IMG/VR virus record: IMGVR_UViG_3300033145_000568
Coordinates: 1 to 61,649 of that record
Origin: a virus
Direction: 5' to 3' (one strand)
DNA: 61,649 nucleotides
Part shown: piece after piece, positions 3,042 to 57,062 of the stretch
Layout of the letters: each line of letters opens with the position of its first letter
How positions within the stretch are numbered: the stretch's first letter is position 1
Made by a program: the position numbers and the translations under genes
The notes under the pieces: generated by a model
The model's input: the letters and a program-made list of their open reading frames with translations, nothing else
What the model was told of the DNA's origin: nothing
Databases searched by the model: none

Positions 3042-4117
3042 TCCTCCCCTGTGTATTCACTTATAGGGCGCTGATTGATCAGCTGGCCTGTCTTCGCGCT
3101 GGTGGGATGTACTGCAGGATCCTCCCACCGCCGATCAGTTAGCCACCCTTGCGCCATCTTGGGAGTGCTGCCTTTCTGTCTGATCGAGGCCCTCAGCACA
3201 TTATATCTCTTGGCCCCGGCTATAATCTCAGCAAATAACTGATCTGCCATTGGGTTGAGCTTCACCCAAGAATCTGCTGCCGCTGCTTTCCCAGCTCGAC
3301 TACCAAAAGCATCCAAGAATTTCTCGAAGCGCTCCAAAATCTTGCCCTTGAGGATCTTGCCCTTGGCTGACTTGTATGATTTTGCTGTAGCCTGCGAATC
3401 CGTTTTTGGAGAAAGTTCTTCTTCTTTTTCTTCTTCTTTTTCTTCTTTTATCTCTTTACTGTTACTGTTACTGCTACTGCTACTGGGTCCTACGAACCCC
3501 CTTCGACCCCTCTTCGATGGTTCCTGAGAAGGTTTCTTGATACCTTTCTTGATACGTCCCTTTGGCTTATCCGCAAAGGGAGCAATCCTATCCCAAAAGC
3601 GAGCTTTAAGATCTCTGTTCTTCTGTTCTGCAAGCGGGTTTAGGAGTCCTGCGAACAACCACCCCGGCTTGCCTCCAAGAATGATCTCTAAGTAGTCTCG
3701 AAGTTCTGCAAAAATTGTTGAGCGGGGCAATTCTTCACACGATTCTATCCAACCGTTTAGCTGATTTGGATTATCTGGCCGATTGTAAATAAGGTAATTT
3801 TTTACAATAATGAGATGGTTATCACGAAGCACTAAAGAGCCCTCCTGGGAGCCCTCCTGTAAACCTTTCTTGAAACCTTCCAAAATGCTTTCTGACGACT
3901 CGATCTCGCCGGATTCTCTGAAACACACAGGACAAATCTGATCATTATAATATCCAAGCAATGAATCCATTAACTGCGAGGAGAATACCCCAGCTCCTAG
4001 AGGGGTCATTGCTGGATGAGTTAGAAGAGCAAACCATGCTAGTTTCTGCATTACAGAGAAAGATGAAAACTTCTCGTCATTCCATATTCGGGGATCAATC
4101 TTACGGTATCTGCTCAT
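3038..4117 (-). CDS. Replisome organiser / replication initiator-like protein
   Basis: 359 residues from the start at 4117, which overlaps the previous stop as ATGA and has AGGAG eight bases upstream; an ORF extension to 4150 is unlikely. The N-terminal 130 residues (YRKIDPRIWNDEKFSSF onward) match the winged-helix-like N-terminal domain of phage replisome organisers. A linker near residues 195-245 is rich in Ser/Asn then Lys/Glu (EEKEEEKEEE). The C-terminal ~100 residues contain a WVKLNP/KRY segment like a DnaD-type or helical tail. Such proteins bind the phage origin and bring in the loader coded next door. Confidence 0.75.
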   Translation of the reverse strand: MSRYRKIDPRIWNDEKFSSFSVMQKLAWFALLTHPAMTPLGAGVFSSQLMDSLLGYYNDQICPVCFRESGEIESSESILEGFKKGLQEGSQEGSLVLRDNHLIIVKNYLIYNRPDNPNQLNGWIESCEELPRSTIFAELRDYLEIILGGKPGWLFAGLLNPLAEQKNRDLKARFWDRIAPFADKPKGRIKKGIKKPSQEPSKRGRRGFVGPSSSSSNSNSKEIKEEKEEEKEEELSPKTDSQATAKSYKSAKGKILKGKILERFEKFLDAFGSRAGKAAAADSWVKLNPMADQLFAEIIAGAKRYNVLRASIRQKGSTPKMAQGWLTDRRWEDPAVHPTSAKTGQLINQRPISEYTGEE

Positions 4118-8760: not shown

Positions 8761-9399
8761 TCACTTGCTTTTAAGCATACTTTTTTTATATTTCCACGTT
8801 GGCAAGATCTCCTTCTTTTTATATTGTGATTTAACAGAAGGGGCTTGGTCTTTATCTCCAATCATGTTGCTTACTTTGTTGATTGCTCGTAAACGGGATT
8901 GATCGTTCCATTTCTTCCAATGTCTATATCTATTTTTGCCTTTATATCGACGGACTGCGCATAATTTGTACAACCATCCGCTAAGAGAGAACCCTCCCTT
9001 GTATGAATTACATCGCGGGCATGAGAGACAAAGATTTTCAACTTTATCTTCTCCACCTTTGCAGCGCGGATGGATGTGATCAATATGCGAACCATAGAAC
9101 CTAATTTTCCGATTACAGTAGAAGCAATACCCTTTCTGGCGATCGTACAAATTTCGTTTGATCTTGCGGTAATCTGGAATTAGAAGTTTGCGCTTAATGC
9201 GAGCAGTTGCTCTCTTCTTTTTTGTTCTTGAGCTCGGCCAAGGGATACAAGCCTTTTCATAATGCTGAATAAAATTCACGGATAAAGTGAATTTAGATTC
9301 CAATTGCGAAACTCTCGCTGGCATAGTTTTGGTATCCGGCATTCGTTGGCCAGTGGTCGCTTTTTCGCGGATGCGCCAAGAACCTTTCTGATCTGTCAT
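8761..9399 (-). CDS. HNH endonuclease
   Basis: 212 residues from ATG 9399 (AGGG eight bases upstream; the TTG at 9456 is less likely). The HNH core is CFYCNRKIRF, then HIDHIHPRCKGGEDKVENL, then CPRCNSYKGG: two CxxC knuckles around DH-x-P-x3-GG and an N-x-K end, the usual zinc-ribbon HNH. The N-terminal third is very basic. A free-standing HNH gene between tail and lysis genes is probably a homing endonuclease; away from the terminase, a packaging role is less likely. Confidence 0.9.
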   Translation of the reverse strand: MTDQKGSWRIREKATTGQRMPDTKTMPARVSQLESKFTLSVNFIQHYEKACIPWPSSRTKKKRATARIKRKLLIPDYRKIKRNLYDRQKGYCFYCNRKIRFYGSHIDHIHPRCKGGEDKVENLCLSCPRCNSYKGGFSLSGWLYKLCAVRRYKGKNRYRHWKKWNDQSRLRAINKVSNMIGDKDQAPSVKSQYKKKEILPTWKYKKSMLKSK

Positions 9400-9459
9400 A
9401 TTGATTCCCTGTTCCTTTGCCCTTATCTTCTTCTGTAGCTTTCCGTCTCGCTGCAATCT

Positions 9460-13142: not shown

Positions 13143-13310
13143 TCATTCTACTGCTTCTACACCCAAGATTTCTTCATAGATCGCCATCCGCTCGCGCAAC
13201 TTTGCCACAGTCTTTTCGTTCGATACAGGGCCGCGCTCTTTCAGCGCTTTCTTTGCCGCCTTGCGTTTCTCGGATTTTCCTTTCGCTTCGACAAGCTTTA
13301 TTACCTTCAC
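13143..13310 (-). CDS. Small basic protein downstream of retroelement (55 aa)
   Basis: GTG start overlapping the previous stop (GTGA), with GGAGG five bases upstream. The first half is strongly basic (KGKSEKRKAAKKALKERG), the second acidic and helical (LRERMAIYEEILGVEAVE). Not recognised. Its coupling behind the RT and the 168-residue gene makes it a possible nucleic-acid-binding accessory, but it could equally be a small virion or chaperone protein. Confidence 0.55.
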   Translation of the reverse strand: MKVIKLVEAKGKSEKRKAAKKALKERGPVSNEKTVAKLRERMAIYEEILGVEAVE

Positions 13311-13813
13311 AATGCCTCCTTTGCGGCTGCTCCATCTTGAATAAGCTTTGTAGCCACATCATTCCATTTCTCAAATTCAGGTGGCGGAGGCGTCCCAGTT
13401 GCATTAAGAAGTACACCCAATGTCAATCTAGCTATACCAAGCTGCTCTTCTTGCCCCGCAAGGGCATTCATTGCTATATTAATAGATCTGCCTGTTTCTT
13501 GATCAATAATAGCTTCCTTCTCTAATGCCGTCAACGTCTGTTTATCATGCTTGGTCTCCCAGAGCGTCTTGGCTACAAGCAGCAATCGCGCTTCCTGAGT
13601 GAATAGGAAGGCCGCTACGCTGTCACGCGATCCCTCGTAGGGCACCACAAACCGAATCTCGTCGTACTCCCACTCTTGACGCGCGCCGTTGTCATCCTCT
13701 ATCGTAATTTGCCTTACGTTCCAGTGAGCCGAGATATGCAACTGTAACCCTTCGTCTGTTGCTTCAAGCTTCCAGAGCCGTAATGTCTCTGGCTGTACGG
13801 TTGATCGTGTCAT
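13307..13813 (-). CDS. Protein of unknown function coupled to the RT gene (168 aa)
   Basis: ATG 13813 overlaps the RT stop as ATGA, with AGGAGG eight bases upstream inside the RT coding end. Residues 1-60 look beta-rich (GLQLHISAHWNVRQITIED, then EYDEIRFVVPYEGS); residues 65-135 are helical (RLLLVAKTLWE, LTALEKEAIIDQETG), with a PPPPEFEKW stretch near the end. It does not match the small basic four-helix Avd protein of classic retroelements. It may be a tail protein or a retroelement partner. Confidence 0.65.
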   Translation of the reverse strand: MTRSTVQPETLRLWKLEATDEGLQLHISAHWNVRQITIEDDNGARQEWEYDEIRFVVPYEGSRDSVAAFLFTQEARLLLVAKTLWETKHDKQTLTALEKEAIIDQETGRSINIAMNALAGQEEQLGIARLTLGVLLNATGTPPPPEFEKWNDVATKLIQDGAAAKEAL

Positions 13814-14892
13814 ACTCCCAGCCTCCTTGCACACTTCCTGAGAGGGTTGCGGAAACCCAAAATAGCGGAAGCGTCATCCATAATTGCCATGATCTCTTGA
13901 TCGTCAAATAAGTATTTTCGTGTTAAGTTGTAGCCGTTACAGTGTTTGATCCAGCCAGCGCGAGCCATGATTGCGCTAACCACGTGCTCCGGGGGCAGCT
14001 CAGGCCAATGCTGTTTGATTGTCGCAAGCTTGGTCTTGAACGATCGCACGGATCTCTTCCGTAGGAGCGTATACTTTCGAAAGGTGCGGTATCCAAGAAA
14101 ATCAATTCCACGTGCATCTACGGGATAGATCTGAGTCTTCGGGTTCAGGGAAAGATATAGGTTCGTCTTGAAATAGGCAGCGATTGCTTTGTGTATTGCA
14201 TTCAAGCGTCGCTTACTTCCGTCCAGAATCACGCCGTCGTCTGCGTAACGGATGTAGTATCGTGCCTTCAACGTCTCTTTGAGCCAGTGGTCGAACTCGT
14301 TCAAGTAGATGTTTGCAAAGTATTGCGAGAGGTAATTTCCGATCGGAATCCCCTTCCCGCTCTCAGGGCTCCTAACGATGTTCTCAAGCAGCCATAGAGT
14401 ATCAGAACACTTGATCTTTCGCTCGATGAGTCCCATGAGAATGTCTTGATTGACCGAAGGATAGAACTTGCTTATGTCGAACTGCAAACAGTACCGCGTC
14501 GCTCTCTCGTTCTTGAGAAATCCTCTCAAACGATTAAGTCCTGCATGAATGCCGCGACCAGGAATTGCAGAGTAAACGTCTGTGATAAACACTCTGTCCC
14601 ATAATGGGCCGATCACTTGCATCACGGCATGCTGGACGATGCGGTCAGGGAAATAAGGGAGCTTAGAGATCTCCCTCTCCTTTGGCTCGTGGATCAAAAA
14701 TCGCTCATAGGGCGCTGTAGTGAACTGCTTCGACACTAAGAGCTTCTGGATCTTCAGCAGGTGCGGCCTTGGGGCCTTATCTACCGCTTGAACCTCAGCG
14801 ACGCCCGTCTTGCCGCGTCGCGCTCTTAGGTGTGCCGACAGTAGATTGTCGTAAGCCAGTATCTTTCTGTACAAGTCGCCGTATCGTTTCAT
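13810..14892 (-). CDS. Reverse transcriptase of diversity-generating retroelement
   Basis: 360 residues, normal for this family. The RT palm motifs are in order: FDISKFYPSV (about residue 138, first catalytic Asp), GIPIGNYLSQYFANIYLN (about 178-195; the IGxxxSQ signature that marks retroelement RTs as opposed to group II intron or retron RTs), YIRYADDGVIL (about 211-221; catalytic Asp pair), LSLNPKTQI and GIDFLGYRTF. It would copy the adjacent template RNA with errors at adenines. No Shine-Dalgarno box is evident. The template repeat and variable repeat lie directly upstream on the same strand. Confidence 0.95.
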   Translation of the reverse strand: MKRYGDLYRKILAYDNLLSAHLRARRGKTGVAEVQAVDKAPRPHLLKIQKLLVSKQFTTAPYERFLIHEPKEREISKLPYFPDRIVQHAVMQVIGPLWDRVFITDVYSAIPGRGIHAGLNRLRGFLKNERATRYCLQFDISKFYPSVNQDILMGLIERKIKCSDTLWLLENIVRSPESGKGIPIGNYLSQYFANIYLNEFDHWLKETLKARYYIRYADDGVILDGSKRRLNAIHKAIAAYFKTNLYLSLNPKTQIYPVDARGIDFLGYRTFRKYTLLRKRSVRSFKTKLATIKQHWPELPPEHVVSAIMARAGWIKHCNGYNLTRKYLFDDQEIMAIMDDASAILGFRNPLRKCARRLGV

Positions 14893-14899
14893 AGTAAAT

Positions 14900-15018
14900 G
14901 CGGGGAGTCCATTAAGACAAGACGTTCCCTTCGGGGTACTAGCCTCACCTTGCTTTTAGTTGTGTGTTTCACCGCTACGGTGAGGATAAAGTCGCTGTTC
15001 ATAGAATGTCCTCCCCGC
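14900..15018 (-). ncRNA. Structured spacer of retroelement template RNA
   Basis: Between template repeat and RT the minus strand has GCGGGGAG (15018-15011) and its exact complement CTCCCCGC (14907-14900), enclosing about 100 bases. Inside, CCTCACC can pair either with a far GGTGAGG or, as TCACCG, locally with CGGTGA. In the Bordetella phage system the corresponding spacer folds and is needed for template-primed cDNA synthesis; the same role is inferred here. Confidence 0.6.
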
Positions 15019-15027
15019 GTAACACCC

Positions 15028-15140
15028 TGAGCTCCAGCCGGCACCCAATATTACGATTCGAATTGGACGCGACATTGTTCGAATTCAGGTAACTGAGACC
15101 AGCATTCGAAGCGTTATTCCAGTTGCCGCTTGCCAGCATT
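15028..15140 (-). repeat. Template repeat (TR) of diversity-generating retroelement
   Basis: 113 bases matching 15227-15339 except at 20 positions. Nineteen of these are adenines of the minus-strand template (29 adenines in all); the one other difference is a C/T in the conserved 3' end. Read in the target frame the template codes mainly Asn codons (AAC/AAT) at the varied positions. It does not itself code a protein. Confidence 0.95.
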
Positions 15141-15218
15141 CGCGTCTTTACCCTTTTGTTCATCAGTTTATTCCATCCTTCAGAGTTGCTTCTCTCGCCA
15201 CACTCGCATCTGCTTTCA

Positions 15219-16514
15219 TTAGCCTATGAACTCCAGCCGGCACCCAACATCACGAGACGAACCGGACGCGACAAAGCCCGAATACAGGCAACTGAGACCA
15301 GCATGCGAAGCGCAACTCCAGTTGCCGCCCGCCAGCAGTATGTTTACTTCGCCAGCATCGTGGGCGTAGAAATAGTCGGGAATATACGTGCTATCAGAGC
15401 CAGCTACGGCTGACGCGATCAGCAGATACTTGAGCGCGGCCTCGTACACAATATTACTGAGGTAGCCGTCCGTTGTTATCGGCGTCGCTGTGCTTGCGTC
15501 GTAGTCGCCACTACCCCACACAGATGGACCTGAGTTAGTCCAGCCGCCGGTTGCTTTCAGGATGTGGTAGGCCGCGTCCACGGCCTCGTAGCCGTCAATG
15601 AATTTCCACGCGTTTCCCCAATGATTCTCGATCCAGCGATAGGCGATCGGGACTAGACCGTCTGTGCCTGTGCCTGTGCCAGTGCCGTTGTCGCCCAGGT
15701 TGCTGTTGATTGACGAGGCGGCTGTAAGTTCACCCGCAAAGCCTGTACCGCTTGCTTTGTCTACAATGCCGCGCCCGATGCCAGTTTGCGAGTCCATGTT
15801 GCCATATTCGATCATGTAGAGCATCTGAATAGCAGCCATTGTCCAGATATTTTCAATACCCCAATGTGAGCCGATATTCTCTGCGTAAGTGCGAGCCTGG
15901 TCTATCGTCAAGGAATCGCTTGGGAGGTCTGGATACGGTTCCCCTGTCGTGCCGGTCACTGGCTGTTTGCCTGAGCGTGAATGCAGCTTGAAGGTGCCAC
16001 TATCGTCGTATCCATCTGCTTCATAAGCAGCTACGTAGATATAATCAGCAGGAGCCGAAGCCGTACGCTGATTGAAAACAGGATGCACTTCAAAGCCGCT
16101 TGCGGCGTAGTTGGCTATCCACCAGCGATATTTATTGGCTGAGGTCTCTTCCGACTTGACCCAGAACTTCGGTATCTGGACCATAACACGCCCGTTCGTG
16201 CCGTCTTCCTTGTAGCCCGCGTCGCCGTATACGTTATTTATTGATCCATCCGCCGCCATGTTCACGCGACGCATTCCAGCCCACGGCAGGAAATGATCGA
16301 ACGACGCCCTGGCAAGTCCGCCCCATTCAACGCCGTCAGCATCTATGCGTGTCCATGTATCGGTGCCCTGATTCCATTCAACGCCAACAATCAGATCTAC
16401 CTGTTGTCCGATGTCGTTAGTAGTGGCCTCTCCATTGCTATTATAGACGCGAACGCCTGGCATCTTGGCGTATCCCTTCATTGTCCCATCTGCTGCGAAC
16501 AGTCGCGTGCCCAT
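15219..16514 (-). CDS. Retroelement-diversified tail-tip receptor-binding protein
   Basis: 431 residues. The C-terminal end (GGNWSCASHAGLSCLYSG, then DVGCRLEF) has the GGxW...AG...GxR layout of C-type-lectin/formylglycine-enzyme-like variable domains in retroelement targets. The middle holds MVQIPKFWVKSEE and YAASGFEVHPVFNQ, typical of phage proteins with this fold; the first ~80 residues resemble a fibre-attachment part. Variable codons give Gly, Ser, Cys, His, Tyr, Phe and Asp in place of template Asn or Tyr. Placed among tail-tip genes, it very likely binds the host receptor. Confidence 0.92.
   Translation of the reverse strand: MGTRLFAADGTMKGYAKMPGVRVYNSNGEATTNDIGQQVDLIVGVEWNQGTDTWTRIDADGVEWGGLARASFDHFLPWAGMRRVNMAADGSINNVYGDAGYKEDGTNGRVMVQIPKFWVKSEETSANKYRWWIANYAASGFEVHPVFNQRTASAPADYIYVAAYEADGYDDSGTFKLHSRSGKQPVTGTTGEPYPDLPSDSLTIDQARTYAENIGSHWGIENIWTMAAIQMLYMIEYGNMDSQTGIGRGIVDKASGTGFAGELTAASSINSNLGDNGTGTGTGTDGLVPIAYRWIENHWGNAWKFIDGYEAVDAAYHILKATGGWTNSGPSVWGSGDYDASTATPITTDGYLSNIVYEAALKYLLIASAVAGSDSTYIPDYFYAHDAGEVNILLAGGNWSCASHAGLSCLYSGFVASGSSRDVGCRLEFIG
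15227..15339 (-). repeat. Variable repeat (VR) at 3' end of target gene
   Basis: Copy of the template with substitutions only where the template has adenine, apart from one C/T change in the 3' end that marks the IMH/IMH* difference. It spans the last 35 codons of the target gene up to two codons before the stop and contains the invariant GTGCCGGCTGGAG stretch near its 3' end. Twelve codons differ in amino acid within the body of the repeat, plus one at its 5' edge. Confidence 0.95.
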
Positions 16515-16837
16515 TATGAGACCTCCACGCCATAGACGGTGTAAGTCAATGAGGTAGCTGCTGATCCCTCAGCTTGTAATGTGTCCCCGGTCTCCATCGT
16601 AAAGGGGCCATCCATCTCCAACCAACCACCAGCCTCAATCGTAATCGAAGGAAGAATCGCGTTCGTGTCTGCGTGCCCATCGTGCCACACCTCAACGGTT
16701 CTATTTGAGATTGATGTGTTCACGATCACTATCAGCTTTACGATAGCTTCGGTGCTCGCCGGTACCGTGTACATCGCATCTTGAGTACCAGATCCAGTCA
16801 GCACCCCTTGGCCTAGTTTCTTGTATGCGTTTGCCAT
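16514..16837 (-). CDS. Small beta-rich tail-tip protein (107 aa)
   Basis: Begins MANAYKKLGQGVLTGSG and consists of beta strands (EAIVKLIVIVNTS, RTVEVWHDG, ITIEAGGWLEMDGP, TYTVYGVEV). Small proteins of this kind accompany tail fibres in many phages and may cap or decorate the tail tip. One-base overlap with the variable-protein gene suggests coupled synthesis. Confidence 0.7.
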   Translation of the reverse strand: MANAYKKLGQGVLTGSGTQDAMYTVPASTEAIVKLIVIVNTSISNRTVEVWHDGHADTNAILPSITIEAGGWLEMDGPFTMETGDTLQAEGSAATSLTYTVYGVEVS

Positions 16838-16838
16838 A

Positions 16839-18182
16839 TTATCCTCCTAAAAAGAATGCGAATGCTTCGGCAGATGCGCTATCTCCGCCGATCCCAGCCG
16901 CCCATGAAAGAACGCTGCTCCCATCCGACACAAGATATTGCGTTCCTGTTGAATCCGCTATAGGCAGGGTCCATATTACATTGCCGGCGAGCGCGTCCGA
17001 CGCCTTGAAACCAACATAATTGGTGCCCCCGCCCGCAAGCTCAAGGAATCGGATTTCGCCCGTTTGCCCTGCGCCTGTATTGAATGGACTGATTTGAATA
17101 GCGTTTTGTGTGTTCAATCCTGTCAATCCAGTGATATCAGTGTTGATACCATTTGCCGCAGCCCCGAGTGTAGCCAGAGCTGTTGCCGCACTCACGTCAT
17201 CAAGAAGAGTTTGAGCAAAGGCAGTGCAATCAATCATTCCCACAGTCCCTGCACCCGTGCCAATGATCATCTTATCATCGGCAAATGTGAGCCCAGCAAG
17301 TGCAGCAAGCTCGTCATCATAGGCTTGAACATTCGTGCCGATAACAAGACCAAGTGTAACTCTTTGCGCAGTTGCATTTGTATCATCAAGCAAGTCTCGT
17401 CCTGCGGCTGTGCAAGCAATTTCCTCTACCGTTCCAGCTCCAGCAGTTGATCTCCCCAGCAATTTGTCTGTCGCACTCACATCCTGCATTTTGTCGTAGG
17501 TGACAACATCACTATCAATCGTCCAGGTTGCGCCTGAAACGGAGACAGTAATATCGCCCTTATCGCCGTCGCTTATCCCTGAGCCTAGTTGGATATCCAT
17601 CCCAGCATCATCAGTAAACCATAATGTGTTTGGTGTGCCAGCCTTTACCCATATCTGTCCTTTATCAGCTACATCTGCTTCAGCCGCTGCTTGTTCTGTC
17701 AGGAAAATAACCCCAAGATTCGTAAGATCCTGTCCATTCAAATCGAATGCTGCAGTTGCCTGTCCTGAGAGAATTGTCATGACTTCAGTAGGGGTCTTCG
17801 TTTCTGGGGTATTATCTGCCGTCGCATATAAGAATGTTGTTGCATCGAAATCAGCTTCCATGACTTGCCCTGTGTCTACTGCCCCGATCATGGAATGATT
17901 TTCATACATCTCATTCATGACCGTGAAGTCAAGACCGCTCTTAGAAAAGACGATATCGAGTTCATAATCGCAGCTTGCCAAGGTTTCTACATCAACGAAG
18001 AAGGCCCATACACCCTGTGCGTTTGTGTCAAATGGATTTGTCTTTGCCTCCGTTCCTGCTTTGTTGGCTTTTAATGTAACCTTTGTAGTTGTTCCTGCTT
18101 TGTAGACGGTAACGGCAACGCCACCAACCTGGCCTTCAGAATCAGTTACAATTCTACCTGTTCGCCTTCTCCAATCAGCCAT
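16839..18182 (-). CDS. Tail fibre shaft protein (447 aa)
   Basis: N-terminal beta domain (VTVYKAGTTTKVTLKANKAG) as found at fibre roots, then a long repetitive part with GDKGDITVSVSGATWTID, LLGRSTAGAGTVEEIACTAA and DDELAALAGLTFADDKM, sequences common in trimeric phage fibres. Ends in a hydrophobic AEAFAFFLGG. Fibre role is secure; attachment point unknown. Confidence 0.8.
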   Translation of the reverse strand: MADWRRRTGRIVTDSEGQVGGVAVTVYKAGTTTKVTLKANKAGTEAKTNPFDTNAQGVWAFFVDVETLASCDYELDIVFSKSGLDFTVMNEMYENHSMIGAVDTGQVMEADFDATTFLYATADNTPETKTPTEVMTILSGQATAAFDLNGQDLTNLGVIFLTEQAAAEADVADKGQIWVKAGTPNTLWFTDDAGMDIQLGSGISDGDKGDITVSVSGATWTIDSDVVTYDKMQDVSATDKLLGRSTAGAGTVEEIACTAAGRDLLDDTNATAQRVTLGLVIGTNVQAYDDELAALAGLTFADDKMIIGTGAGTVGMIDCTAFAQTLLDDVSAATALATLGAAANGINTDITGLTGLNTQNAIQISPFNTGAGQTGEIRFLELAGGGTNYVGFKASDALAGNVIWTLPIADSTGTQYLVSDGSSVLSWAAGIGGDSASAEAFAFFLGG

Positions 18183-18191
18183 TTCTGCCTC

Positions 18192-20201
18192 CTATGTACC
18201 GGTGACGATTGGCACGGCTGCCACTTCGATCATATACTCATTACCTTCCGGGAGCCCTGGCAGCTGAATGAATTGCTGATTGCCAATGGTTACCTCATGC
18301 CATTCTCCCGCTGCCCAGTATATCTCATATCCTTCGCTAATTCCTGGCGCAATTGTCAATGCCTTCAAGAATGTGAGTTGATTCGCTGTGTTGGTGAGGA
18401 TCCTTTTTAGGTTGTCTGTTCCAAGTCGTGAGACAATTGTACAGACACCATCATTCCAATACTCGCCGTCTACGGTCGGTCCTGATTTTCCTGTCAAGTA
18501 GCAATAGCCACCATTGCGGAATTCATCTGGTGTCCAAGCCTTGTAACAATCCGTGAGTGTTGTTGTGGAGCCTGTTGTTACTGTTCCTGAATCCCGCGGA
18601 CTGAGTAATCTGTAGCGTAGCACATGCGTGCGTGTTCGCCCATCCTTTGCCCCGAACCACGACACATCAATAATCGGTGCTGGGGATCCCGCTACGTCTT
18701 TTCCCCATACGCTCTTCGCAATTATGTTCGTTGGCACTTTGGGTAACGGACCATGTAGAAGTTCAAGATATCGATCTTGTTTCCACTGATTGTCTGTCCG
18801 GGCTCGATCGAACCAATATCCGTAATTCCCTATTCTTCGTGCGAGGGTTCCTGCAATAACCGTATTACCAATTTCATCACCCTCTCCAAGCTTGAGCGTA
18901 ATTGATGTGATCCCGATATCCATGGTCTTCGACGGACTTACAATGCGGACAATATCACCACCCTCAATATCAAGAGCCAACCAAGGAATAACTGCTGAGA
19001 CTGCTATAGGAGGAACACCGACATCTGCTGCAGCAGCATTTGCTTCTCGCTGTGCTTCTGAGGGAGTGTCAATCCATGACAGATCATTCTCAACAATACG
19101 CATCCGCTTATGAAGACGCACTTCACCGGCCCCCGGAATCCCATAAAGTGCCAATGATTCAAGCTTCTCTGCATCCACATAGTGCGGGGATCCATCTTCA
19201 TCACTATAGAAGACTACTCGAACAAACGTGCGCACATTTGCTTCAGAGCGATTCGATCGTACGACACTGATGTTGCCTTCCAGGTCAATATCAGGGGTTG
19301 TGTTGTCTCGATCAGGATCAACAACAGTTGGCACAAAATCCCCTTGCGTCGTGTTGTACTTTTCCATCAGCATGAAGCCAATTGCGCTGATTGGTCTTTG
19401 GATGGCATCACCAATTGAAATGTCTCCAATTTCGTAACGCGAACAGAAGAATGTCAGAGTATCTTGCCCGGTTGGGGAGGGAGCAATCACAATATCCGCG
19501 CTGTGGCCATAGTCAAGAAGGATTTGGTTAAGCACATTGTTCGTTCCTGAAAACACGGTCCAGTACGTGGCATTGGGTGGCTCGTTATTTGTGCTGTTGA
19601 GAATGCATTGATAGGCTATCCCATCCAATGTCACTATATCGCCCACCACAAAGGCCGTAGTAGAATTCCAGATTCCCGACACATAACAGTCTGTATAGAC
19701 ACGACCCTCATCAATTTTGTCGATGTAGTGAGCGAAGTATTTTTGCATCACGCCAACAGCACGCACAACAATATAATCATTGCCCTCAATCCCCTCTTCA
19801 GGCTCAATTGAATCCGGCCCCAGCCGTCCACTGAAGACCATTGCATTTGCCCCTGCAACTGGATTGTCTCCAACACCATCATATTTGCCAATCCAAATCT
19901 GTATCTTGTGGTAACAGCCGAGCAAAGGAACTCCGGCAGGATTGAAGATGGATGTGTCTTCAGGATCAAGGCTTTCACTTGCCGATCTGTATTCCGGTGT
20001 ATTGAGAATAGTAATTGTTGCTGTCCATTTCCCTCCACTTTGAGCGTATGTCCATTGTAATGACTTTACACGAGACTTCCCTGGGAAGGCGGACCCGGTA
20101 GGATTCACAAGATCAATCCAATCTGTACCGTCGTGGATCTTTATCTGGCGGCCACTCACTTTCGATAAGATATGAGCATTTTCTATATCATTGCGGGCCA
20201 T
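18192..20201 (-). CDS. Tail-tip/baseplate protein with inserted binding module (669 aa)
   Basis: Directly follows the tape measure, the usual place of distal-tail and tail-associated proteins. Residues about 175-215 hold a chitin-binding-type module (FVVGDIVTLDGIAYQCILNS ending NATYWTVFSG). The flanks look like tail-hub beta domains; the C-terminal part (PTNIIAKSVWG, VLRYRLLSP) is Fn3-like. The inserted module is nearly duplicated at DNA level in the gene at 25801-26880. Confidence 0.75.
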   Translation of the reverse strand: MARNDIENAHILSKVSGRQIKIHDGTDWIDLVNPTGSAFPGKSRVKSLQWTYAQSGGKWTATITILNTPEYRSASESLDPEDTSIFNPAGVPLLGCYHKIQIWIGKYDGVGDNPVAGANAMVFSGRLGPDSIEPEEGIEGNDYIVVRAVGVMQKYFAHYIDKIDEGRVYTDCYVSGIWNSTTAFVVGDIVTLDGIAYQCILNSTNNEPPNATYWTVFSGTNNVLNQILLDYGHSADIVIAPSPTGQDTLTFFCSRYEIGDISIGDAIQRPISAIGFMLMEKYNTTQGDFVPTVVDPDRDNTTPDIDLEGNISVVRSNRSEANVRTFVRVVFYSDEDGSPHYVDAEKLESLALYGIPGAGEVRLHKRMRIVENDLSWIDTPSEAQREANAAAADVGVPPIAVSAVIPWLALDIEGGDIVRIVSPSKTMDIGITSITLKLGEGDEIGNTVIAGTLARRIGNYGYWFDRARTDNQWKQDRYLELLHGPLPKVPTNIIAKSVWGKDVAGSPAPIIDVSWFGAKDGRTRTHVLRYRLLSPRDSGTVTTGSTTTLTDCYKAWTPDEFRNGGYCYLTGKSGPTVDGEYWNDGVCTIVSRLGTDNLKRILTNTANQLTFLKALTIAPGISEGYEIYWAAGEWHEVTIGNQQFIQLPGLPEGNEYMIEVAAVPIVTGT

Positions 20202-20204
20202 TGT

Positions 20205-23200
20205 CTACATCCTTATTGGCGCGAATCCCACGCCAGCGTCATTTACATTCTTGCTTGTGAGTTCCTTGAGCATGATGGTCGTCAGTCGCTGTTGTGACAG
20301 ATTGATATTGATCGTTGCTCCATGGCCACCCGCTCCCGCCGCTGCATATTGTGCTGATGGACTGAAAGGATTGATCCCCCCCAATCCTGCTGCCGAGACC
20401 ATTGGTTGTGTCGAAAGCAATCCTGCTAGTCTATCAAGGGGCAGCACTACTTCAGGCCCTTGTTCCCCGATAAGAGAAAGCGTTGGGTCCATTGCAATTC
20501 CGCCTTTTCCCATAGCCTCAAAGTACGGAAGCTCATCAATATGCACTCCTAGCCATCCAAGAGCCCAATTTATTGCTGCGATGAATGCATTCCCGGCACC
20601 GATAAACAAATTCATGATACCGCCGAGCACATTAACAAAGAATGTGAATACACCGCCGACTGTTTCAAGAATTGATCTAAAACTATTAACAGCCGCATTA
20701 ATGAATTCTAAGCCCGTATTTATCGCACCAATCAGCCATTCCCAGTTTGACGTTTCTCCTTCAAGATCTTCTCCCAGCAGCCACGCCTTAATGTTGCCCA
20801 GAACAGTACCAAGATTCGTGACAATATCATTGAGAACGCCTTGTAGCCTCTCAAGAAGATTGTCCTTGATATCATCCCAGTTTTCGTTTACCCATGCACC
20901 GAACTCCTCGAACATGTCCAATACTGTGTCCACGAATGGCTGTATAGCCCCCCACACGTCTGTAGATAGCCACTCCCACCCTTCGGTAGAGAAGAAACCA
21001 ATGATGGCATCTAACCACCCATAGATTCGATCCAGCCACTCTCCTACCTGCGGAGCCATGTCCTCTTTCCAGAAAGGATCGACCATATCTGTCCAAAAGG
21101 TTCCGAATCCTTCCGCAAAGGCTTTTAGATCATCGACGAACACATCCTCAATCCATTTAGAAAGCTGATCCAGCGTCCATCCGAAAGTGTCAAGGACGGG
21201 CAAAATTCCCTCTATTATGGACGGGAAGATGGCTTCGTATGCTGCTTGTACAGTATCTCGAAAATTAGCAATTGGCTGAATGGCAAGAATGATTTCATCA
21301 CGGAATGGTTCCATTGCCTCTTGCCACCACGTTAGCACCTCGGATGGTTCTTCTTCTTCGGGGGTTGCCGTGCTCCAATCGAATTGGACTGCTTCTCCGG
21401 GTGTAGCTGCTCCAAATCGAGTTCGGTTTATCGGCCATCCAATAGGTACATTGAGGTTCGATAGAAGTTTCTGCCGTGCTTCCACCTCTTTTTTGATAGT
21501 TTCTTCCTGAATGATGAATAAATCAGTAATTGAAGTCAATATGTCTGCCAATGGCCATAGGAAGCCAAGAATCGTACTCATGATGTCAACTTGCAGTTGC
21601 GCAAGTCCTTCTTGGATTGAGGCAACGGACTCTGCTGACTGAACGAGATCCCAGAACGCACCAGCAAGGGCTTGTGATGCCTCTATGAGTTCGTCTTCGG
21701 TAGCCTTTTGTGCTGCTGCAGCAGCGGCTTCATCTTCTGCCCATTTGTCCATAATCCACGAAATGGCCCCAATAGCTAATCCAACCCCTGATCCAATCAA
21801 CGGAGACAGGGCTTCAGGCCCAGCAGCTGCGCCACCGAATCCTGCACGAATATAAGGACTTATTGCTCCAATAACAGCCGCAAGTTCTGACCCAAGATCG
21901 CCTGCGAACGCTCCAACTACCTGTGTTAAGGCATCAGTCGTAATTCCTGTAACATCAACCTTTGCTGCGGCAAGACCAAAATCTTCAAGATCCGCAATGA
22001 GTTTCAATAGTTGATCATCGGCCTTAATTCCTATTGAGGCCAACGCTTGTTGAAGACCAATGGCTGTTTGATAGAGGGATTGCAAGCCTTGCAGCGATTC
22101 TGCTTGAGCAATGGAGCCAGTTGTAGTCTCAGTGAAGGCTAAATGCAATTCATTAAATTGACGAATCAGGGCAGGAAGACTGCTTTCTCCAAGCAAAGCA
22201 TTGATCCTATCAACGAGAGCCTGAACCATCTTGGTTCCTGCCCAGCCCTTGTTAGTGAATACTTCAAGCACATCCTTTGAATCGCCCAAATAGTCCTGGA
22301 GTTTAGCAACGGCCTCCATTGTGCCTTCGACATTGGCAGGATCGAGTTTTGCAGCCTCAACAGCCACCTTACCGAACATCTCAGAGACCCAATCCCATGT
22401 ACCAGGCTGTGTGAGTGGCGGGGCTTCTTTGGTTTCTCCCTTTACTTCCTCGCGGAATAACCGGATTTGGGCAAGTGTATAGCCAAATGCTTCAGCAACA
22501 GTCTTTGCCACTTCATCTGATTCGTCTGCTAATTCTTTTTGAAGTATGCGGAGTTCGGTTGTCGATCGTGCCAGATCAAACGTGCGTTGTTCTAAATCAA
22601 TTATAGATACACCAAATTGCTCTAACCCGGCTTTAGCCGCTGCGCCAATTTCTGGGATGCCTTCTTTCATTGCTGTAAGCATCTGGTTAGTAAGCCCAGC
22701 CATGATTTCGGTCACTCGTGCTTGAACCATAAACACTAGCGGTTGCTTTACTATCCCTCCCCAAGCGGTTGTCCCTTCACCCATGGAGGGAACGGGAATC
22801 ATAGAAGGGGGAAGTGGAAGCCCTGTCGGGATTTCTTCTTCAATAGGACGAAGTTTTTTTACTTCATCTAAATACTTTTTCAGTGCATCGACATTATCCT
22901 CAGTTGCATCTTGCATGTCTTTTAACTTCGATACAAGAAATCCAATGCCTGTTCCCAGCAGCATCAATGTTGCAGAGATTGCTGCAACGACAGGATGAGC
23001 GTTTATGGCAACAAGGGCTGCATTTATTGCCCAAATACCGGCTGCCAATGCGCCTGCGGCAACAGCGCCGCCAGCCATGTACCCTGCTATATCAGCAAAT
23101 GCTTCTCCGGCAGGCCCCAACAGATCCACTATTATCTCAAATCCTTCCGATAGACCTGTCCATGATTTCAGGAATGATTCAATTGCAGGCATCAAAACCT

Positions 23201-24524
23201 CACCCACGCTGATTGCCACATCGTTGATCTGTGATTTCAACGTCTCTATTCGGTATTCCCACGACTGAGCTACTTTCTGGAAAGCAACATCCATCGTGCC
23301 TGCTGCGGCTCCTGTCCTCTCTAGGTCTAATGCAAAACCTGCGGCGGCAGTAGTTACCAACGGCAAGACAGCTGTAATCGCACGAACGTTTGTGAATAAG
23401 TTTTCGAGAGGAATCCCTCCTTTTTCAGCACCCTCCGAAACCAGTTTTAGAGCTCCAGCAAAGCCGTTCGCTTGGATCATCGATCGGCCAGTATCATAGC
23501 CTAAGTCTCTAATCAAATCTGCCAGATGTCCAGTGGGTCTGAACATTTGCATGATTGTCTGTCGCAATGATGTGACTGCCCAATCTGTTGCGATCCCCTG
23601 CCTGGTTAGGGTCGCAATTGCGGCCGTCATTTCTTCAAGCCGTGCGCCTGCTGGAGCAGCGACGCCTGCAAGGCGACCGAATTGAGCCGCTAATTCTGAA
23701 TAGGTTGTCTTGCCATATCTTACAGCAGTGAATAACAAATCATTAACGTGTTCTGATTCTGTTGCACTCATATTGTAGGCATTTAAGACGGTCGTCATCA
23801 TGTCTACTGCTGTTGTTATATCCGTTACGCCAGCTGCTGCCGCTCGCATACCAGATTCAAAGATCTCTGTTGCATCAGCCGCAAAGAAGGTCGCGCTGTA
23901 GATCTGATACATAGCTTTCGCGCCATGGGCGGCAAAAACGTTGTAATCGTAGGCTAGATTCCTGATCTCATCACCAAGAGCGTCAATGCCTTGTTGATTG
24001 AGATCTGTTAGAGTCCACAACTGATATAGCTCTTTGTTGTACTCTCGTTGTGCGTCTGTAGCCCCACTAGCCATGCTAAGGGTCTTTGTGATAGCTGCAA
24101 AAGCTGCCATGTAAGGCAAAACTGCCTTCATCATGGTCAGCATAGAGCCGATGGTCAATCCTGTCGCCATTGTTGCTGTACCAACGGCGGCTACGCCAAC
24201 AGACAGATCTACTGCACCAACGGCCATCAATTGTGTGGCCACAGCGCCTTGATGCATAGCAAGTGCAAGATTGTTCGATGAGAGAGTGGCCATCTGTTGG
24301 GCGCTCAATAGCCCCATAACTGCGCCCGTGACCATGTTGTAGCTAGTAACTAAGCCTGTATTTGCGGCAGCAATAGCAGCAGCAGCAGCCTGTCCCTCGC
24401 TGATCATCCGTGATGTATGGGATGCAAACGAAGTACCGACTCCTGCCATCTGAGATTCAAATTGAGCTCTTGGGACAACAATCTCTACGAATGCTCTACC
24501 GAGAGCACCTGCTTCACCTGCCAT
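20205..24524 (-). CDS. Tail tape measure protein, TP901 type
   Basis: 1439 residues, the largest gene; at about 1.5 Angstrom per residue this implies a tail near 200 nm. Residues 150-400 carry the TP901-type core (GMRAAAAGVTDITTAVDMMT, LNAYNMSATESEHVNDLL, AQFGRLAGVAAPAG). Hydrophobic segments occur near residues 105-150 and 475-525, as usual for proteins inserted in the host membrane at DNA entry. Coiled-coil and Trp-rich repeats fill the C-terminal half. Confidence 0.92.
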   Translation of the reverse strand: MAGEAGALGRAFVEIVVPRAQFESQMAGVGTSFASHTSRMISEGQAAAAAIAAANTGLVTSYNMVTGAVMGLLSAQQMATLSSNNLALAMHQGAVATQLMAVGAVDLSVGVAAVGTATMATGLTIGSMLTMMKAVLPYMAAFAAITKTLSMASGATDAQREYNKELYQLWTLTDLNQQGIDALGDEIRNLAYDYNVFAAHGAKAMYQIYSATFFAADATEIFESGMRAAAAGVTDITTAVDMMTTVLNAYNMSATESEHVNDLLFTAVRYGKTTYSELAAQFGRLAGVAAPAGARLEEMTAAIATLTRQGIATDWAVTSLRQTIMQMFRPTGHLADLIRDLGYDTGRSMIQANGFAGALKLVSEGAEKGGIPLENLFTNVRAITAVLPLVTTAAAGFALDLERTGAAAGTMDVAFQKVAQSWEYRIETLKSQINDVAISVGEVLMPAIESFLKSWTGLSEGFEIIVDLLGPAGEAFADIAGYMAGGAVAAGALAAGIWAINAALVAINAHPVVAAISATLMLLGTGIGFLVSKLKDMQDATEDNVDALKKYLDEVKKLRPIEEEIPTGLPLPPSMIPVPSMGEGTTAWGGIVKQPLVFMVQARVTEIMAGLTNQMLTAMKEGIPEIGAAAKAGLEQFGVSIIDLEQRTFDLARSTTELRILQKELADESDEVAKTVAEAFGYTLAQIRLFREEVKGETKEAPPLTQPGTWDWVSEMFGKVAVEAAKLDPANVEGTMEAVAKLQDYLGDSKDVLEVFTNKGWAGTKMVQALVDRINALLGESSLPALIRQFNELHLAFTETTTGSIAQAESLQGLQSLYQTAIGLQQALASIGIKADDQLLKLIADLEDFGLAAAKVDVTGITTDALTQVVGAFAGDLGSELAAVIGAISPYIRAGFGGAAAGPEALSPLIGSGVGLAIGAISWIMDKWAEDEAAAAAAQKATEDELIEASQALAGAFWDLVQSAESVASIQEGLAQLQVDIMSTILGFLWPLADILTSITDLFIIQEETIKKEVEARQKLLSNLNVPIGWPINRTRFGAATPGEAVQFDWSTATPEEEEPSEVLTWWQEAMEPFRDEIILAIQPIANFRDTVQAAYEAIFPSIIEGILPVLDTFGWTLDQLSKWIEDVFVDDLKAFAEGFGTFWTDMVDPFWKEDMAPQVGEWLDRIYGWLDAIIGFFSTEGWEWLSTDVWGAIQPFVDTVLDMFEEFGAWVNENWDDIKDNLLERLQGVLNDIVTNLGTVLGNIKAWLLGEDLEGETSNWEWLIGAINTGLEFINAAVNSFRSILETVGGVFTFFVNVLGGIMNLFIGAGNAFIAAINWALGWLGVHIDELPYFEAMGKGGIAMDPTLSLIGEQGPEVVLPLDRLAGLLSTQPMVSAAGLGGINPFSPSAQYAAAGAGGHGATININLSQQRLTTIMLKELTSKNVNDAGVGFAPIRM

Positions 24525-48351: not shown

Positions 48352-48368
48352 CTTCCTTTTTCCTGCTG

Positions 48369-48443
48369 AGGGAGGGACGGGACTCGAACCCGCGATCCCC
48401 GGTGCCACAGACCAGTGCTACATGCCATCACAGCTACCCTCCC
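48369..48443 (-). tRNA. tRNA-His (anticodon GUG)
   Basis: 75 bases folding as a standard cloverleaf: acceptor GGGAGGG/CCCTCCC, D stem GCTG/TAGC, anticodon stem CTGGT/ACCGG with loop CTGTGGC, T arm GCGGG-TTCGAGT-CCCGT. The anticodon GTG reads His codons. Odd points: no G at -1, a T at position 73 where His tRNAs normally have C, and no encoded CCA. Confidence 0.85.
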
Positions 48444-49956: not shown

Positions 49957-51297
49957 TCAAAGCAATCTATCCATCGGACACTCACTGTTAATGCGCTTCC
50001 GCGCCATTTCTACATATTCTCCGTTCAATTCGATCCCAATATAGCGGCGTCCCTCTTGCTTGGCAACAACACCAGTCGTCCCTGCTCCAAAAAATGGATC
50101 GAGGACAGTACAAGAAATGCTGTCCAGCGGTGCCCATAAATCCAACAACCGTTGCCGTTCTTGACGTATAGGCTTACATCGTCCCTCATAAGCTTCATCG
50201 CTTTCATCTTTCCCTTGGCGTGGATACTCAAGCCACTGATCAACCTGCGGATAGTGATTGCAAGTAGGCCGCCAGCCAAGCGTTTCCGAACCAACAGGCT
50301 CTTTATAGCTTTGCCCTTGCGAGCCTCTGCTGTGCCGCGCAGTCTGTTTATCACCGAACCAATGCTCGTGAATATGATATTTTGTTTCCACTACTCTTTC
50401 CCACGGCGCACCACACTCAGGACAACAACCCCTTTCGCTTGATCCAGCACGGATACAGGGCCGAATCAAATCGGGAGGGTATACGGCAAAGTGGGCCTCT
50501 TTGAACGGCCTTGTAGCAATCGTCCAGACATCGCGTTTGTTGCGCGAAGAGCCATTGTATTCTTTATTCCGGCCCAGCCGCTTCTGCGCCATGTGTCCAG
50601 GTTGAATCCCTTGCGATTGACGTGGCGCAAACGTTGCCCCCTTGCCTGTCTTCTTGGCCCGTCGTGTAAATCCCTGCCCATAAGGGGACTTTATTGATCC
50701 TGGCGAGTTTGGTATCCCATAAGCAGCCGATTCCTTAATTGCCCGTTGATCGTAGTAGTACTTTTTCGACTTTGCCAGCAGGAAGATGTGTTCGTGGGAC
50801 TTTGTGGGGCGATCTGTTACACTTTCAGGCATCGGATTGGTTTTAACCCAAATGATCTCGCTTCTAAGGTACCACTCTTCTGCTTGAAGAGCAAAAGCTA
50901 CACGCCAAGGAATGCCAACAAGGTCTTTGGGCTTGAGACCAGGTGCATATTTGCCTGATGCTCGATCCGCTGGGTTCATAGAATCTGCGCCGATTACATT
51001 CCTGCGCCTACATTCCCATCCCCCAGCGTAGTAACTATCACCAAGGTTAAGGAAAAGCGTCCCATCATCCCTTAGCACCCGCTTGACTTCCCTAAAGATC
51101 TCCACAAGCCTTTCTACATACTCTTCGGGTGTCTTCTCACAACCCAGTTCCATCTTCTTGTCGGAATGATCTTCCGGCAAATATGACCGCAATCCCCAGT
51201 AGGGCGGAGAAGTAACACAACAATGCACAGATTGATCAGGCATCCCGCGCAACACCCCTAAAGCATCACCACAGACAATCTGATTTTCTCCGTTCAT
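49957..51297 (-). CDS. DNA methyltransferase, likely N4-cytosine
   Basis: 446 residues, beta-class order: TSPPYWGLR (catalytic motif IV; the SPPYWGLR form is typical of N4-cytosine enzymes) near residue 30, then at the end DPFFGAGTTGVVAKQEGRRY (motif I) and IGIELNGEYVEMARKR. A long insert (residues ~175-375) holds GCCPECGAPWERV with a C-C-C zinc-like knuckle and is probably the target-recognition part. No partner restriction enzyme is near, so it likely protects phage DNA. Confidence 0.88.
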   Translation of the reverse strand: MNGENQIVCGDALGVLRGMPDQSVHCCVTSPPYWGLRSYLPEDHSDKKMELGCEKTPEEYVERLVEIFREVKRVLRDDGTLFLNLGDSYYAGGWECRRRNVIGADSMNPADRASGKYAPGLKPKDLVGIPWRVAFALQAEEWYLRSEIIWVKTNPMPESVTDRPTKSHEHIFLLAKSKKYYYDQRAIKESAAYGIPNSPGSIKSPYGQGFTRRAKKTGKGATFAPRQSQGIQPGHMAQKRLGRNKEYNGSSRNKRDVWTIATRPFKEAHFAVYPPDLIRPCIRAGSSERGCCPECGAPWERVVETKYHIHEHWFGDKQTARHSRGSQGQSYKEPVGSETLGWRPTCNHYPQVDQWLEYPRQGKDESDEAYEGRCKPIRQERQRLLDLWAPLDSISCTVLDPFFGAGTTGVVAKQEGRRYIGIELNGEYVEMARKRINSECPMDRLL

Positions 51298-56483: not shown

Positions 56484-57062
56484 ATGAAACGAGTATACCC
56501 AATCAGAAAGATCGAGCAGATCAACAGGATTAGGCGAAACCTGAAGAAGCCGAAGACCGCTGTTTTCTATGCGCTGTTCGTGATCGGCGTGAATACCAAT
56601 CTGCGCGTGAGCGATCTTCTCAACCTTAGATGGAAGCAGTTGTGGGTGGAGGGAACGCACAAGTTCCGTGACAACATCTTCCTCGGCGAAAAGAAGACCA
56701 AGAAGACAAGGCGTATCAAGATCTCGGACAATATGCAGGAAGCCCTTCTCTATCTACTTGAGAACATCAGACCTCCTAAGCCCACAGACCCGATCTTCCG
56801 CAACAAGAAGACTAAGAAGGTCTACTCTCGTGAGTACATATCTAGGCGAATGGGCGTAGAGGGGCGAAAGGTAGGGATCCAAGATCCGATCGCTATCCAC
56901 TCCCTGCGGAAGACCTGGGGCTACCACGCAGCCGTGACCTTCCATCAGCCGCTTGTCCTTGTCCAGGCAGCATTCAACCACGCCAGCGAGGGCGAAACGA
57001 TGGGCTATCTGTCCATCAACGACGACGATCTCGAAGATGTATACGATGCAGTTGCACTATAA
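56484..57062 (+). CDS. Minimal tyrosine recombinase
   Basis: 192 residues: the catalytic domain only, without an arm-binding or SAM-like core-binding domain. All residues can be placed: Arg in NLRVSDLLNLRW (about residue 39), Lys in the TKKTRRIKIS hairpin, HSLRKTWG (His and second Arg), FNHASEGETM, and Tyr in MGYLSIN. Possible roles are integration or dimer resolution; at this length it resembles XerC-like phage resolvases. No attachment site was identified. Confidence 0.88.
   Translation: MKRVYPIRKIEQINRIRRNLKKPKTAVFYALFVIGVNTNLRVSDLLNLRWKQLWVEGTHKFRDNIFLGEKKTKKTRRIKISDNMQEALLYLLENIRPPKPTDPIFRNKKTKKVYSREYISRRMGVEGRKVGIQDPIAIHSLRKTWGYHAAVTFHQPLVLVQAAFNHASEGETMGYLSINDDDLEDVYDAVAL

Follow-up and report, generated by a model that had tools for sequence, protein, structure and literature searches.

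The window analyzed here, a stretch of 61,649 nucleotides that makes up IMG/VR record IMGVR_UViG_3300033145_000568, almost certainly contains a genuine diversity-generating retroelement (DGR) of a tailed virus, which would rewrite a tail protein that is presumably receptor-binding and which has no recognizable accessory gene. This reading draws on a reverse transcriptase (RT) of the DGR kind, an adenine-biased pair of template repeat (TR) and variable repeat (VR), a conserved structured spacer, and a target protein with the fold of DGR variable proteins encoded in a tail gene cluster. An earlier note on this DNA had claimed a DGR acting on a tail protein, and all of the core parts were indeed present in the usual order, i.e., target-VR-TR-RT, with the RT and target coordinates of that note corresponding to correct open reading frames. 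The window adds one more DGR of a kind that is already known, more than 30,000 of them having been catalogued (PMC8144416); it comes from a poorly known tailed virus that very probably diversifies a tail protein, and methanogen and Chloroflexota loci are among the relatives of its RT.

Table 1. Features of the DGR and its surroundings (positions within the window).
Feature	Position	Strand	Details
Template repeat (TR)	15028-15140	minus	113 bp; 29 A, 10 Asn AAY codons
Variable repeat (VR)	15227-15339	minus	113 bp; last ~37 codons of the target
A-poor, IMH-like 3' end of VR (TTGGGTGCCGGCTGGAGTTCA)	15227-15247	minus	one T/C difference from TR
IMH*-like 3' end of TR (...GGAGCTCA)	15028-15048	minus	
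Spacer RNA, TR to RT	14893-15027	minus	motifs TGAACAGCG, GTGAAACACA, TAGTA; four covarying helices
DGR-type RT, 360 aa	13810-14892	minus	IGNYLSQ, YADD; matches to phrog_1423, RVT_1, 8ub7
168-aa protein	13307-13813	minus	RT stop overlapped by ATGA
Target, 431 aa, VR at 3' end	15219-16514	minus	tail family; predicted FGE-type C-type-lectin fold
Upstream tail module	16514-24524	minus	three tail/fibre-like genes and the tape measure gene (20205-24524)

The positions of the two 113-bp repeats and the 20 differences between them were reproduced as the earlier note had given them, and a recount likewise returned 19 differences at the 29 template adenines and a single C/T near the 3' end. Read on the coding (minus) strand from TR to VR, these are 19 A->N changes and one C->T change (on the plus strand, 19 T->N and one G->A). 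Given the 29 adenines of the TR, the probability that at least 19 of 20 differences would fall at A is 2e-13 (hypergeometric). Similarity between TR and VR ends sharply at both 113-bp borders, and 8 bp of the ORF lie beyond the VR. The sole non-adenine difference lies in the 3' ends of the repeats, which are A-poor and alike but not identical, i.e., GGGTGCCGGCTGGAG[C/T]TCA, with C in the TR and T in the VR. By analogy with BPP-1, these ends may be assigned as IMH in the VR and IMH* in the TR; the single non-adenine change in an A-poor 3' end is as expected for IMH* versus IMH. Across the 84 non-A positions there was no decay except for this C/T, which argues that homing has been recent relative to background substitution.

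The adenine differences alter 13 residues of the target, in agreement with the number that had been claimed, and the C/T difference adds a fourteenth (Leu to Phe), just inside the 3' end; one A->G difference (GCA to GCG) is silent. Among the adenine-bearing codons of the TR, 10 of 17 are AAY, and changes at the TR adenines can specify about 1e15 possible proteins without ever producing a stop codon. The record holds no third copy of the repeat, i.e., no second VR or TR. Searching IMG/VR with a DNA pattern of the TR scaffold returned no contigs of the same virus with other VRs, in a searched set outside which near-identical records may lie.

The RT matched phrog_1423 (3e-121) and RVT_1 (1.8e-17). 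It has the SQ-type motif 4 (GxxxSQ) of DGR-clade RTs in the form IGNYLSQ and also the YADD motif, so that both of the RT motifs that had been claimed, IGxxxSQ and YADD, are there. Compared with solved structures, its profile matched best by far the RT of PDB 8ub7 (E 7e-61), which is labelled simply 'Reverse transcriptase' and which we take to be the BPP-1 DGR RT, and the runner-up was a group II intron RT (9e-33). Between TR and RT, the 135-nt spacer folded with a z of -2.72 relative to shuffled sequences, 4 of 200 shuffles being as good. An alignment with eight relatives revealed the common motifs TGAAcAgCg, GgtGAAAcACA and TaGTA, together with a four-helix consensus that has 29 compensatory cells and of which 0 of 500 shuffles reached any of five measures, the structure having been predicted from the same alignment on which it was scored, so that the scoring leans towards it. 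Slid versions of the consensus scored far lower, and the spacer of the window, as read from the alignment, forms 17 of the 18 consensus pairs. No Rfam family matched the spacer at E<=1. A BPP-1-like hairpin or cruciform was sought downstream of the VR, where folding was not better than in shuffles (z 0.88); some DGRs require such a hairpin, but not all of them do (PMC3521204).

The 168-aa protein had no Pfam or PHROG match, and similarly placed proteins come after the RT in relatives, including Firmicutes prophages. A role for this gene as a DGR factor is the less likely reading, given these prophage genes and a counterpart that follows the TR of locus L029, which is without an RT; it is probably a tail-associated gene instead. 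In L029 itself, a VR and a TR (3063-3342) have 24 of 25 differences at A, the target is ~57% identical to that of the window, and the spacer motif is followed directly by the tail-associated gene, while the RT is absent from the whole 7-kb contig: either the RT has been lost or one acts from elsewhere.

The target matched phrog_5302 'tail' (1.7e-61) and had no Pfam match. A profile built from 17 target sequences matched PDB 5vf4 (E 1.1e-11). The earlier note had proposed that the C-terminal domain of the target be modelled, and a predicted model of the target, which is of modest quality (mean pLDDT 58), was TaqVP-like: Foldseek found TaqVP, the DGR variable protein of Thermus aquaticus (E 2.4e-6), and in VIA-align TaqVP was again the best match (Z 15.4 over 256 residues, rmsd 4.2), followed by formylglycine-generating enzymes (FGE; Z about 6) and, weakly, by Mtd (1yu0, Z 4.6). 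Profile and predicted model together indicate that the target folds as an FGE-type C-type lectin, as known DGR variable proteins do. It is encoded within a minus-strand structural cluster that comprises terminase, portal, major head protein, tape measure and tail genes, and both the PHROG 'tail' families and the synteny downstream of the tape-measure gene would place it at the tail tip. It is very probable that the DGR serves to diversify a receptor-binding protein of the tail, the target being presumed to bind a host receptor. In the closest relative of the target (L028:5001-6205, 73-74%), the contig breaks off at roughly the start of the VR, which is what a failure of assembly at a hypervariable or repeated segment would produce. 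A target homologue also occurs in the tail module of an archaeal virus, Methanosarcina virus MetMV (L140, 43200-44768), with no RT annotated alongside, so that the fold is found outside a recognized DGR too.

RT relatives were drawn from IMG/VR and from GTDB genomes. The closest ones in GTDB belong to Methanoregula, Methanomethylophilaceae, Dehalococcoidales and Methanogenium loci, and by group the RT relatives come from methanogens, Dehalococcoidales and Bacteroidota. For terminase and capsid, the relatives are distant and mixed. A TR/VR pair could be detected in 99 RT loci, the window among them, and 1602 of their 1633 differences are at adenines; since pair detection demanded at least 75% of differences at A, this count characterizes the family and does not serve as an independent test. 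Elsewhere in the window are an HNH endonuclease gene (8761-9456) beside the tail genes, a tRNA-His (48368-48443), a tyrosine integrase gene (56484-57062), from which a temperate lifestyle is likely, and a DNA methyltransferase gene (49957-51297) that the profile matched mainly at its two ends, which suggests an insertion in its middle.

Mutagenic retrohoming is the mechanism established for BPP-1. If the DGR of the window operates in the same manner, the TR would be transcribed together with the structured spacer RNA, and the RT would make a cDNA of the TR, with misincorporation at template adenines. In the tail gene upstream, this cDNA would take the place of the VR at the 3' end, in a direction set by the A-poor 3' end (IMH versus IMH*). 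About a dozen residues would be rewritten on the presumed ligand-binding face of the C-type-lectin-fold tail protein. From these sequence features we infer that the DGR is active at present.

The earlier note had described the DGR as complete, and this stands for the target, VR, TR and RT but not for an accessory: neither Avd, nor HRDC, nor the OB-fold gene of this clade was found. In the record, bAvd (PF22296) had no match at E<=10, and HRDC (PF00570), MutS_I (PF01624) and SSB (PF00436) had no match; a ~97-aa OB-fold ORF, which stands beside the RT in many relatives, is absent from the window and from its nearest RT relative, L003. A degenerate OB accessory was considered and rejected, the best profile match (E 0.096) being a short frame (17270-17425) that falls within a longer coding region (16839-18182). 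These accessory searches cover this record only, which may be a genome fragment. Other known DGR accessories named in PMC10053308 are HRDC, MSL and one protein of Wu et al. 2018 that has no Pfam attribution.

In the relatives, the ~97-aa ORF either separates VR from TR or directly follows the RT, often overlapping the RT stop. Its product is not covered by any Pfam family and matches PHROG only weakly. The predicted structure is confident (pLDDT 91) and of OB-fold type, and at Z 5-7 the model resembles SSBs, PriB and the OB domain of RuvB-like proteins. Such values suggest a type of fold, not a function. The OB-fold profile matches 78 of the 92 RT loci with enough flank; the carriers are most of L004-L018, L027, L034-L050 and L053-L132, and also L137:3992-4288 (ANMV-1) and L138:3992-4279. 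In four or five Bacteroidota loci (L087, L091, L107, L128 and probably L129), the OB-fold protein is part of the same ORF as the RT. Linkage of the two was assessed in whole genomes of Flavobacteriaceae (n=299), where two genomes have this RT and the same two, and no others, have the OB-fold protein, the genes being adjacent in both. The OB-fold protein is likely to be an alternative accessory to Avd. It may be the Wu et al. 2018 protein without Pfam attribution, and we do not claim the family as new.

In a quick RT tree, the window and L003 are nested among OB-fold carriers (SH-aLRT 90-96), so that the simplest reading is loss of the OB-fold accessory in the window/L003 lineage. A Firmicutes clade (L069, L079, L100, L114 and L116) is also without the gene. 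Where a pair was detected in OB-less loci, the differences at A were 21/22 (L003), 19/19 (L079), 22/22 (L114) and 28/29 (L116), and such clean A-only pairs argue that these loci still work. Because its own TR/VR pair is without decay, the DGR of the window probably still works as well, with no recognizable accessory of its own. We suggest, tentatively, that the window lineage shed its OB-fold partner and still diversifies its target, and that accessory-free mutagenic retrohoming has evolved at least twice, in window/L003 and in the Firmicutes phage clade.

Alternatively, it is possible, though less likely than not, that an accessory is supplied in trans, by a host SSB or other OB protein, by a divergent unrecognized gene, or by a gene in some portion of the genome that the record does not contain, a reading that refines the main explanation and is not exclusive with it. 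The usual accessory of the clade is OB/SSB-like in fold, so a host SSB could substitute, and the record may be incomplete; set against this are the lack of an SSB in the record and several negative profile searches, of which the 0.096 match was the best. We regard it as unlikely that the DGR was active until recently and has now fallen silent with the loss of the accessory kept by sister lineages. Such a reading would fit the presence of the OB-fold gene beside the sister RTs L004-L007 and L053-L056 and its absence from the window and L003, as well as the report that Avd is essential in BPP-1 (PMC12875486), whereas the undecayed non-A positions, the intact RT ORF and spacer RNA, the A-only pairs kept by the OB-less loci, and the report that about a quarter of DGRs are without an accessory homologue (PMC7290462) all speak against it. 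Ordinary duplication under diversifying selection beside an unrelated neighbouring RT has nothing specific in its favour and next to no chance of being correct, being contradicted by the A-only pattern with its P of 2e-13 and also by the DGR-specific RT, the DGR-type target fold and the same layout in most of ~100 related loci. The window and L003 offer a compact natural test of the need for an accessory, which is a question of mechanism, against close relatives that have an OB-fold partner. For the engineering of DGRs, a system reduced to RT and TR would be of value.

Compared to known systems, the window shares with the BPP-1 DGR (mtd-avd-TR-brt) the target-VR-TR-RT order, the A-specific differences, the similar but not identical IMH and IMH*, a structured spacer of similar length, an RT homologous to that of 8ub7, and a target of C-type-lectin fold (with the weak match to Mtd). 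It differs in having no avd, in that no hairpin was found after the VR, and in a target that is TaqVP-like, not Mtd-like. TaqVP (PDB 5vf4, from a Thermus aquaticus prophage) has the same FGE-type C-type-lectin fold with a C-terminal VR, at 15-19% identity to the window target, and, unlike the window, the Thermus DGR has avd (PMC6328139). Related RTs stand in the tail modules of ANMV-1, a virus of ANME archaea (32%), and vir525, a Methanosarcinales virus (41%); in contrast to the window, both have the OB-fold protein just after the RT, and their targets are not detectably homologous to that of the window. The ANMV-1 DGR has already been published, and its OB-fold protein directly after the RT is annotated as hypothetical. 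Another 'hypothetical protein' of ANMV-1, the 64-aa AJP62063.1 (L137:2720-2914), has a translation that resembles the C-terminus of the target adtA, and looks like the TR of the ANMV-1 DGR read as protein. The Psychrobacillus phage Perkons, a large phage of 137 kb in which the OB-fold protein was unmatched in a search of a phage collection, has a related RT (45%) and target (33%) in the same order. PMC7290462, citing Wu et al. 2018, places the crAssphage LMMB DGR in 'lineage 3' and describes such DGRs as typically without avd; as quoted there, the order and the lack of avd that mark 'lineage 3' are both found in the window, a resemblance in these two features. Although crAssphage LMMB belongs to a different phage group, its DGR shares with the window the TG-VR-TR-RT arrangement without avd, a C-type-lectin tail target and an RT that is about 40% identical, and has 28 template adenines to the window's 29.
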